This document shows positions 1,677-6,928 of a stretch of DNA of 64,000 nucleotides, in pieces. The translations under genes were made by a program, and so were the position numbers. The stretch covers positions 62,001 through 126,000 of the forward strand of contig JAIBEX010000019.1 of assembly GCA_019459455.1 (NCBI GenBank), in the 5' to 3' direction. Position 1 is the stretch's first letter, and each line of letters begins with the position of its first letter. The stretch comes from Weeksellaceae bacterium. GTDB taxonomy: Bacteria > Bacteroidota > Bacteroidia > Flavobacteriales > Weeksellaceae. The notes beneath the pieces were generated by a model. The model saw nothing but the letters and a program-made list of their open reading frames with translations. It was not told the DNA's origin and ran no database searches.

Positions 1677-1706
1677 TCCCCAGAGTAATCTGGGGACTTT
1701 TTTTTA
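1677..1706 (+). terminator. Rho-independent terminator after DOMON-like gene
   Basis: A perfect 8-bp stem TCCCCAGA (1677-1684) / TCTGGGGA (1689-1696) with a GTAA loop is followed by C and a run of T. It lies 10 nt after the stop at 1666 and ends the plus-strand cluster. Confidence 0.88.
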
Positions 1707-1712
1707 AAGACA

Positions 1713-1770
1713 TAAAAAAACTGATGACTCTGCTTTGGATTCCGAAGAATCTTTTAGCTGAATCATCAGT
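1713..1770 (-). terminator. Terminator of the candidate RNA (minus strand)
   Basis: An 8-bp outer stem (1720-1727 with 1763-1770), an inner 5-bp hairpin (1738-1742 with 1747-1751) and seven A on the plus strand (1713-1719), which read as a U-tract on the minus strand. It converges on the plus-strand terminator at 1677-1706. Confidence 0.6.
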
Positions 1771-1960
1771 TAAGTCATTTGCTTTAATTCTAACCTTGTC
1801 TAGTGCTTTGGGTCCTATGTTTTAACTTCTTCCTTTCGGTTTCCAGTTAAGCGACGAACCATCAGTTTTAGAGTTCAGCCATCAATTATTTTGAGTTTCT
1901 GAATCTCTACCTTTCGGTTTCAATTGATAATCCTCTGCGGTTTGACTTTTTTGTTGATGT
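1713..1960 (-). ncRNA. Candidate structured small RNA downstream of pyk
   Basis: No gene lies in 1667-2171. Read on the minus strand, the region ends in a terminator-like structure: ACTGATGA/TCATCAGT arms (plus 1720-1727 and 1763-1770) enclosing a second GATTC/GAATC stem, then a T-tract (1713-1719). Two further hairpins lie inside: TTAACT/AGTTAA (1822-1827/1845-1850) and ATCAATT/AATTGAT (1881-1887/1922-1928). Each loop carries one copy of the 12-mer GAAACCGAAAGG (plus 1832-1843 and 1910-1921). A weak promoter-like TGTATTTG lies near 1973. It does not show the RNase P, SRP, tmRNA or 6S hallmarks I know. The 5' end is approximate. Alternatives are the 3' UTR of pyk or a chance set of repeats. 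Confidence 0.42.
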
Positions 1961-2171
1961 AAAGATCGCAAATACAGCATCTTTAATCCAAATAAAAAAG
2001 CCTTTTCTTATCAACCTTTTGTCCTCTCGTTCTGCACCTCATCTTCCGTTCGAAAAATACCTATTATATTAAAGGTACAGGAGTTATCAACTGAATTATC
2101 CGCATTTTCACAATTTAAGCCAAAGTAAAATCTAAAACAAAACTGCAAAGCAGAACATAATTTTTAATGGT

Positions 2172-3614
2172 TTATATGGTTGTAAGCCTTAAAGTATTGG
2201 TACGGCCGCCATCACCTGATGGCGTAGCGTTCAGGTTGATTACAAAATCTCCTTCTTCCACATAGCCAAGGTCGCTGACCATCTGATTAACCTGAATAAT
2301 GGTTTCATCCGTGGATTTTTCAGCGTCGTAGTAATAGGCCCGGACACCCCACAGCAAGTTGAGCATTGTGGTCACCCTTTTGTTGGAGCTGAATACGATG
2401 ATATGAGAATTGGGACGGTGTGCAGAAATCTGGAAAGCGGTGTAACCGGAATGGGTCAGGGTAATAATCGCCTCAACGTCGGTACTCTTTGCAATCCTTA
2501 CGGCAGCCAGGCAGATCCTGTTCGTAATGAACCGCGTGTCAATACAGTTGAACTCCTTTTCTATGGGGGAATTCTTCTGGATATAGAAATTCGTATTTTC
2601 AATGTTTTTTACAATCTTAGTCATGTTCTTAACGACCTCAACCGGGTATCTTCCAACAGAGGTTTCTCCCGAAAGCATCACCGCATCTGCACCGTCCAGT
2701 ACGGAATTTGCCACGTCATTTACCTCAGCCCGGGTAGGGGTAAGGCTCGTGATCATGGTTTCCATCATTTGAGTCGCAATAATAACCGGCTTGGAATAGC
2801 TACGTGCTTTCTCCACCAGCATTTTCTGGATTGCTGGTACCTCTTCCATAGGAACCTCAACACCCAGGTCACCACGTGCAACCATCAAACCGTCACACTC
2901 CAGCAGAATCTGGTCGATATTTTTAACCCCTTCCGGCTTTTCAATCTTGGCTATGATGGGTGTTTTAGTCTGGTTGGGATGCTTCTTGAAAAGTTCCTTC
3001 AGATCAATGATGTCCTGTGCATGACGAACAAACGAAAGCGCAATCCAGTCCAGTTCCAGATCCAGCATGAAATTGGCATCTTCAATATCTTTTTCAGTTA
3101 ATGCAGGAAGTGAGACGTTGGTATTCGGTAAATTAACGCCTTTTTTAGAACTAAGCGGACCTCCCTGCACCGTCACCGCCTTCACCATATCCACTTCGTT
3201 TGTTTCAATAACCTGCAGTACAAGCTTACCGTCATCAATTAGGATCCTCTCCCCCGCTTTTACATCTTTGGGGAAATCCTTATAGGTCATATAAACCGTT
3301 TTGGAATCTCCTTCTATCTTTTCATTTGTAAATGTTAAGATGTCACCGGGATTCAGGTACGAACCTTCCTTTACAACCCCCACACGAAGTTTAGGACCCT
3401 GTAAATCTCCCAGGATGCCCACCGACGAACCCAGTTCCTGATTGATCTCCCGGATCATGCGTACATTGTTGGTCACAATTTCATAATCGGCGTGGGAAAA
3501 ATTTATTCTGAAAATATCAACACCTGCCTTTATGAGGTCGGTCATAATTTCCTTCGTTGAGGAAGCCGGGCCTAATGTCGCTATTATTTTTGTCTTTTTT
3601 AGATATTTATTCAT
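2172..3614 (-). CDS. pyk: Pyruvate kinase
   Basis: The 480-residue enzyme transfers phosphate from phosphoenolpyruvate to ADP, the last step of glycolysis. Visible signatures are the N-terminal KTKIIATLGPASS strand, GDLQGPKLRVG, the IIAKIEKPEG active-site lysine/glutamate strand around residue 225, the VARGDLGVEVP metal/substrate loop, and IIATQMMETM followed by TPTRAEVNDVANSVLDGAD. A C-terminal regulatory-type domain spans about 360-480. Length is normal for the family. The start overlaps the end of the IPExxxVDY gene by 8 nt, making pyk the last gene of the acpP-fabF-rnc operon, an arrangement typical of Bacteroidota. Confidence 0.96.
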   Translation of the reverse strand: MNKYLKKTKIIATLGPASSTKEIMTDLIKAGVDIFRINFSHADYEIVTNNVRMIREINQELGSSVGILGDLQGPKLRVGVVKEGSYLNPGDILTFTNEKIEGDSKTVYMTYKDFPKDVKAGERILIDDGKLVLQVIETNEVDMVKAVTVQGGPLSSKKGVNLPNTNVSLPALTEKDIEDANFMLDLELDWIALSFVRHAQDIIDLKELFKKHPNQTKTPIIAKIEKPEGVKNIDQILLECDGLMVARGDLGVEVPMEEVPAIQKMLVEKARSYSKPVIIATQMMETMITSLTPTRAEVNDVANSVLDGADAVMLSGETSVGRYPVEVVKNMTKIVKNIENTNFYIQKNSPIEKEFNCIDTRFITNRICLAAVRIAKSTDVEAIITLTHSGYTAFQISAHRPNSHIIVFSSNKRVTTMLNLLWGVRAYYYDAEKSTDETIIQVNQMVSDLGYVEEGDFVINLNATPSGDGGRTNTLRLTTI

Positions 3615-6522: not shown

Positions 6523-6532
6523 TAAAGTGATG

Positions 6533-6928
6533 TGGAGTTGGAGGGATTCGAACCCTCGTCCAAACAAGCAACACATAAGATTTCTACATGCTTATTCTGC
6601 TATTGGTTTTCGACCGGGAACAGAGAGCAGACACCCAATTTCCGGCTTATCTTCTGAAGTTTTCGTGTTTTGGCCGAAGTTTCCAAAACCTTATTTCCGC
6701 ATTGCTATACCCCGGAATCAGACGTAGCGAAACAGAACTTCTGTGGGATATCTTGCCTCCTTACTATCTTCGGGAGAACGCTAAATCCTACTGTAATTCG
6801 GATTAAGCAGCAAGAGCAAACTCTTGGTCGCCAGTTAAAAATGTGTAGCAAGGGATTAAAGAGATCGCGCTACGGTTCTCTGCATGCTTACTTACCCATT
6901 GATCTTGCTGTCGAAACCAGTCAACCCC
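6533..6928 (-). ncRNA. ssrA: Transfer-messenger RNA (tmRNA)
   Basis: tmRNA rescues stalled ribosomes and tags the nascent peptide. The 5' end GGGGTTG (6928-6922) pairs with the 3' end CAACTCC (6540-6534), with a T-arm GGTTCGAATCC at the 3' side and the conserved GACTGGTTTCGACAGC near the 5' end. The tag frame around 6807-6836 reads GGC GAC CAA GAG TTT GCT CTT GCT GCT TAA, giving the peptide GDQEFALAA, which ends in the usual proteolysis signal ALAA. The CCA end is not encoded. At about 396 nt it is of normal length for a one-piece tmRNA. Confidence 0.95.

Follow-up and report, generated by a model that had tools for sequence, protein, structure and literature searches.

CsrB and RsmZ are protein-titrating RNAs that carry many copies of one hairpin in changing copy number, and type III toxin-antitoxin RNAs consist of tandem repeats and a terminator, followed by an adjacent toxin gene. 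For Flavobacterium psychrophilum, PMC9723704 describes the Rfp small RNAs, of which 18 of the 45 non-antisense members were called strongly structured, presents Rfp18 as a small RNA with predicted mRNA pairing, and gives a sigma-A box consensus of TAnnTTTG at -12 to -5; Flavobacteriaceae, a related family, are there called understudied. Little work has been done on regulation by small RNAs in this part of the Bacteroidota. The locus compared here with such systems lies in the window (the whole 64-kb stretch of Weeksellaceae DNA that was analysed), in an intergenic gap that, judged from sequence, contains the short version of an RNA gene that some relatives keep near dinB in a form about twice as long. 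A sponge for a partner molecule is the leading guess for its role.

The gap, described beforehand as gene-free, was confirmed at 505 nt between the end of a + strand open reading frame (ORF; 908-1666) and the stop codon of pyk at 2172 (pyk, 2172-3614, minus strand; Pfam PK, 1e-113), the latter being the upstream neighbour and lying outside the RNA gene. The predicted transcript runs on the minus strand from about 1955 to 1712 (~243 nt), close to the 1713-1960 of the preliminary description, which had also rightly reported a 12-mer in two minus-strand loops (exact copies of GAAACCGAAAGG at 1910-1921 and 1832-1843) and a terminator-like stem, found here as a 16-nt inverted repeat on the minus strand (1719-1734 with 1756-1771), followed by a T run. 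Even when one mismatch was tolerated, the window had no further match to GAAACCGAAAGG; shuffled controls gave a mean of 0.54 matches, with at least two matches in 10 of 100 shuffles. The repeated loop motif had been regarded as unusual, and the duplication is real but by itself weak evidence for an RNA gene, because the window contains 14 exact 12-mer pairs at 20-120 nt spacing (words with fewer than three different letters excluded, longer repeats counted repeatedly). The case for an RNA gene rests on the homologs rather than on the repeat alone. A second hairpin, CCCCAGA/TCTGGGG at 1673-1700 with a T run on the + strand, is probably the terminator of the convergent + strand ORF and separate from that of the RNA.

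Rfam 15 was searched, as had been proposed beforehand, and no family was found at the gathering cut-off near 1712-1955, nor in any of 12 loci (that of the window and 11 of the 15 homolog loci), the best sub-cut-off score being 22.5 bits, far below the cut-offs. With no Rfam model matching in the gap, the earlier statement that the RNA is none of RNase P, SRP, 6S and tmRNA holds; the tmRNA of the window is located elsewhere (6530-6928, minus strand; RF00023, 138.6 bits). The RNA was not found described in the literature searched, including works citing the 224-motif paper, and is called undescribed provisionally.

A first BLAST of the window RNA against 40 genomes, its own included, gave a clear non-self match only in the terminator of G014 (E 2.3e-10); matches in G012 (E 2.2e-4) and at a second position of G014 were recognised afterwards as real homologs. 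The G014 locus, located away from the pyk of that genome, contains a longer RNA that shares the 5' element ATCTTTACATCAACA and the terminator arm with the window copy and has three CCGAAAGG motifs. Among 120 family genomes, only that of the window had the double 12-mer pattern. Using pattern searches and a 5' profile (R1), carriers were identified in 16 of 320 family genomes with the window included (15 of 319 others), eleven being dinB-linked, the window among them (G000, G014, G043, G052, G099, G119, G160, G178, G184, G188, G190), and five belonging to a single genus, g10 (G012, G055, G071, G103, G110). Fourteen of the 16 carriers, among them the window, supplied the sequences for R1; its search added only G190 (E 1.4e-15) and G052 (E 7.4e-6, confirmed on reading the locus). 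Across the 320 genomes, 216 were matched by R1 at E <=0.05, 15 of them at E <=1.4e-15 and G052 at the value given; the remaining matches (E 9.6e-5 and up, among the matches listed) were taken as noise. The 5' pattern with two mismatches matched 126 of 320 genomes, its backwards control also matched often, and 10 of 14 regions taken from these matches were real. The terminator pattern matched 14 of 320 genomes, nine of which are carriers, and two of the five non-carrier matches (L106, L108) read as coding sequence by eye. Within 158 genomes of the order, R1 returned two strong matches, both known carriers, and seven more at E 1.3e-4 to 9.0e-4.

Carriers per genus amounted to 1/4 in the genus of the window, 1/2 in g6, 1/1 in g12, 8/36 in g41 and 5/7 in g10, with the size of each genus counted by eye. 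No clear copy was seen in the remaining three genomes of the former genus (G001 and G003 without match, G002 with a best E of 0.0083, where 'former' refers to the genus of the window), and G084 and G094, from the genus of G012, were absent from the matches listed. This patchy presence likely reflects frequent loss; since no clear copy was found in 304 of the 320 family genomes, the gene is not generally needed. Predicted transcripts measure 243 nt in the window, 541-593 nt in the ten other dinB-type carriers and 466, 467, 467, 894 and 1182 nt in g10. As the more distant genome G052 has a form of 566 nt, the short form of the window is probably derived, presumably through loss of the middle. 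That all 16 carriers represent one family appears well supported at both ends of the RNA and weakly supported in its middle.

The start of the transcript was predicted from the sigma-A box position in PMC9723704. All elements were assigned to the minus strand. The upstream element GTTGATAA (2008-2015) lies in a region conserved in alignments A1 and A2 and is present as the exact word in 5/16 carriers; the -33 element TTTG (1989-1992) is preserved as TTG at this place in 13/16 carriers (missing from G055, G071 and G103) and as TTTG in 10/16; and the TAnnTTTG-like -7 box GATCTTTA (1960-1967) reads ATCTTTA in 8/16 carriers and TATCTTTA in 5/16, with variants in the others. The conserved 5' leader AACAAAAAAGUCAAAC (1940-1955) includes AANNAAGUC in 14/16 carriers, replaced by AAAGCA in G014 and G052. 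Hairpin 1 (1893-1938) contains CCGAAAGG at 1910-1917 and outer pairs GAG/CUC, and hairpin 2 (1822-1850) is composed of UUAACU, a purine internal loop, CC-GAAA-GG and AGUUAA. In the transcript, these hairpins lie at offsets 39 and 117 and are followed at 186 by the intrinsic terminator hairpin ACUGAUGAUUCAGC ... GCAGAGUCAUCAGU (1719-1771; 17 pairs in the model described below), which starts with CUGAUGA in 16/16 carriers and is succeeded by a U tract (1712-1718). The 5' part and the terminator are common to the 15 homologs. Longest sense ORFs comprise 20-82 aa and vary widely between homologs. The marks of a base-pairing small RNA, namely an own promoter, an intrinsic terminator and a noncoding body, are found at the sequence level, and the stretch is best read as an independent noncoding RNA gene with a Bacteroidota-like promoter and not as the 3' UTR of pyk.

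Two models were constructed with the window left out: R3 for the 5' part (15 sequences, structure-free) and R2 for the 3' part (10 dinB-type sequences, 17 pairs). In the 64-kb window, the best match of R3 was 1927-2023, minus strand (E 4.8e-16; next 0.027, opposite strand, same place), and that of R2 was 1710-1810, minus strand (E 1.1e-11; runners-up 3.1e-5, from the same palindrome read on the opposite strand, and 0.087), these E-values being optimistic within window-derived words, as the homologs had been collected with such words or with R1, which includes the window. This collection applied no selection on hairpin offsets, on the 3' terminator arm or on the upstream region. R2 placed the terminators of the five g10 loci correctly (E 1.2e-7 to 4.6e-5), though built from none of them, and R3 gave no match in 15 loci, among them G078 and loci without the RNA. 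At the G078 locus (L123:2619-2720), upstream of dinB, only the terminator end was recognisable (R2 E 1.1e-18, G078 being likewise outside the sequences used for R2; 5' match absent); it appears to be a remnant of the RNA gene.

In dinB-type RNAs, up to five CCGNAAGG-like hairpins were located near offsets 39, 117, 230, 337 and 440, picked manually by motif and position. Their loops are mostly GNRA-type, with exceptions such as GCAC, GCAU and GACA. All five were recognised in G188, G099 and G178, and fewer in the other dinB-type carriers. Hairpin 1 is found at offset 39 in the window, G184, G188, G099 and G178 and at 38 in G190, and was not recognised in G014, G160, G043, G119 and G052; hairpin 2 is found at 117 in the window, G184 and G188 and at 111-125 elsewhere. 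The two similar loops noticed beforehand are indeed two hairpins, yet not a plain duplication, being the counterparts of hairpins 1 and 2 in arrays that have as many as five members elsewhere. Because the internal loops vary in length, pairing was assessed by a flank-swap test, which asks whether the 5' and 3' flanks from one species pair better with each other than flanks swapped between species; elements that remained unassigned (G014 at 94, G184 at 147, G119 at 415) were left out. Own flanks paired better, with p values of 0.025 for hairpin 2 (n=11), 0.0036 for hairpin 3 (n=10), 0.047 for hairpin 4 (n=4) and 0.014 for hairpin 5 (n=8), and no co-variation was seen for hairpin 1 (p 0.42, n=6). 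Combined, hairpins 2-5 gave p 5.8e-5 (repeat run), with 12 displaced-anchor controls at 0.078-0.85. With near relatives dropped, the values for hairpins 2-5 were 0.051, 0.0036, 0.17 and 0.030, respectively, and 5.3e-4 combined. Compared with shuffled flanks, 9 of 39 single hairpin instances reached 0.05, among them none of the 11 instances of hairpin 2.

Folding of window 1700-1985 gave a z of -3.46 (0/200 shuffles as good) and of the window RNA without terminator -1.71 (12/200 shuffles); the fold signal of the window comes mostly from the terminator. For G184, the whole RNA including the terminator had a z of -2.71 (0/100 shuffles), and the RNA cut inside the terminator a z of -0.80 (18/100 shuffles folding equally well). 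Across the terminators of 10 homologs, 11 of 17 pairs are invariant, four vary on one side and two are changed on both sides, the latter number being matched by 24 of 500 shuffles. The A content was 39-50% in 11 RNAs.

In the five g10 genomes, the 5' end and the terminator are those of the other carriers and enclose interiors that differ (RNA length 466-1182 nt). The RNA of G012, located after a DUF779 gene, contains nine GAC-A(n)-GUC hairpins (strict pattern), which differ from the dinB-type hairpins, and a tandem duplication of 284 nt inside the RNA gene (2.1 copies, 85% match; L092:1339-1926), in which expansion of the array is directly exemplified. G110 has an RNA 288 nt shorter than that of G012, with about six GAC-A(n)-GUC hairpins by eye and no duplication of the 284-nt type seen by the repeat finder. 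Short forms are present in G055, G103 and G071, and the strict pattern found no such hairpin in G055 and G071. The combination of same ends and different interior suggests one RNA gene with fast module turnover.

As the best explanation, tentatively held, the gene would encode an independently transcribed, intrinsically terminated Weeksellaceae RNA that acts in trans by titrating a partner. Its A-rich strand would present a series of small hairpins, each unit formed by a mostly GNRA-type loop, a short CC/GG stem and a purine-rich internal loop; in trans, these would bind multiple molecules of a single partner, either an RNA-binding protein or a further RNA, and such multi-site binding would titrate the partner in the manner of a sponge. 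The window copy would then be a shortened one, in which two hairpins stand against a maximum of five elsewhere. A trans-acting, multi-site RNA is proposed because the hairpins are repeated at similar spacing, with co-varying flanks and changing copy number; to these features, homology and the promoter and terminator anatomy are added by the sequences, and we infer from them transcription, action in trans, titration and the nature of the partner. The differing interiors of the dinB-linked and the G012 groups are awkward for one conserved protein partner. Weak folding without the full terminator, the small share of single hairpin instances that exceed shuffled flanks, the missing co-variation of hairpin 1, the weaker values of hairpins 2 and 4 once near relatives are dropped, the patchy presence in the family and a possible decay of the window copy speak against this explanation as well. 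A bolder form, in which CsrA-less bacteria would possess a modular sponge with fixed ends and an array that is swapped, expanded by tandem duplication (G012) or shortened (window) between lineages, tuning the capacity for an RNA-binding partner of the Bacteroidota, is conceivable and must be rated unlikely for now.

The serious rival is a base-pairing small RNA, in which the leader (CAACAANNAAGUCAAAC) and A-rich single strands would pair with mRNAs and the hairpins would only stabilise the molecule. This is a genuine possibility, albeit a doubtful one: the 5' leader belongs to the best-conserved parts, A is abundant in the RNA, folding is weak apart from the terminator, and a precedent exists in Rfp18 of Flavobacterium psychrophilum with its predicted mRNA pairing (PMC9723704), but it would leave unexplained why one hairpin recurs several times with flanks that co-vary and why the array is expanded in G012. 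Base pairing through the leader can be combined with multi-site binding.

The copy in the window may still work in its shortened form, or it may be a relic. As a decaying, non-functional relic, it would descend from an ancestor of ~560 nt by loss of the middle and hairpins 3-5, comparable to G078, where the terminator is kept without a 5' match. The probable derivation of the short form from one like that of G052 and the three other genomes of the genus without a clear copy are in line with such decay; it is nevertheless considered rather improbable, as the window copy retains intact promoter-like boxes, leader and terminator, together with hairpins 1 and 2 at the same positions as in G184 and G188. 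A scaffold RNA that self-assembles or forms an RNA-protein particle through GNRA-type loops, like the large ornate RNAs, would account for the spaced, mostly GNRA-type hairpins and for lengths of up to 1182 nt, and is judged very unlikely in view of the weak folding outside the terminator, the high A content and the great variation in length.

In 11/11 dinB-type carriers, no more than 5 kb separate the RNA from dinB; it is on the same strand and upstream in 10, with a gap of ~300 nt or less in six (G043, G119, G160, G052, G099, G184), of 0.76-1.4 kb in G014, G188 and G178, of 4.0 kb in the window and of 4.6 kb in G190, there on the opposite strand and with lpxK and a purine-nucleoside-phosphorylase-type gene preceding the RNA. 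Pfam confirmed the dinB assignment in G190 and in the genome of the window; other neighbours were named by eye. Homologs adjoin dinB/punA or other genes, and the gene of the window is probably at the ancestral place near dinB with other genes intervening, rather than an appendage of pyk. Among 30 regions upstream of dinB, loops and terminator arm were present in four (G043, G160, G119, G014), G078 had a variant terminator arm only, G178 had the arm 1.46 kb upstream, and some of the remaining regions contained another gene. The exact 5' element or terminator arm was found at 0 of 29 other pyk loci (30 loci sampled from 196 genomes with a match). Several dinB genes (L127, L130, L131 and others) start a few bases past a TAnnTTTG-like box by eye, and dinB mRNA may be nearly leaderless.

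A cis-acting pyk 3' UTR or dinB leader/attenuator, to which the adjacency to pyk in the window and the distance of ~300 nt or less to dinB in 6/11 dinB-type genomes could point, was rejected on synteny and retains next to no probability, since the RNA is absent from 29/29 other pyk loci examined, dinB is 0.76-4.6 kb away in 5/11 carriers and once on the opposite strand (G190), and several RNA-less dinB genes have the said box just before the start codon (by eye). From the two readings offered by the preliminary description, the regulatory 3' UTR of pyk was accordingly dropped, also because homologs stand beside other genes, and a small RNA outside known families was retained, as indicated by the lack of an Rfam match at cut-off, the RNA's own terminator and promoter-like sequences, homologs elsewhere and co-varying flanks. 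A mobile or phage element was rejected as well, the terminator pattern having no exact match in viral contigs; BLAST of the G184 RNA gave no match in plasmids or phages.

The gene is compact, its start is promoter-like and its terminator clear, and since natural variants carry between two and about nine hairpins, the sponge model is testable in culturable relatives. It could lead to an RNA-binding partner in Bacteroidota and serves as an example of an RNA gene with conserved ends and a rapidly changing interior.

With regard to known systems, type III toxin-antitoxin RNAs precede a toxin gene, and in the loci read here dinB or other genes follow the RNA (mostly by eye). The large ornate RNAs OLE, ROOL and GOLLD resemble it as long structured noncoding bacterial RNAs, whereas the RNA described here folds more weakly outside the terminator and has no Rfam match at cut-off. 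The Rfp small RNAs (PMC9723704) are likewise intergenic and independent and come from the same phylum, in an organism whose sigma-A box is TAnnTTTG, but belong to another family of bacteria and include Rfp18, which is presented with predicted mRNA pairing. A CsrB-type RNA was rejected because CsrA (PF02599) was found in 0/16 carrier genomes, the control search finding it in 3/14 known genomes; moreover, the loops are mostly GNRA-type instead of the GGA-in-loop of CsrB and RsmZ, and Rfam gave no match at cut-off. Several copies of one hairpin, the hallmark of CsrB and RsmZ, are seen together with their co-variation, and a protein may be bound by them. The RNA would work at most like CsrB without being one, and the likeness lies in a noncoding, intrinsically terminated molecule that carries several copies of one small hairpin in a number that varies among relatives.
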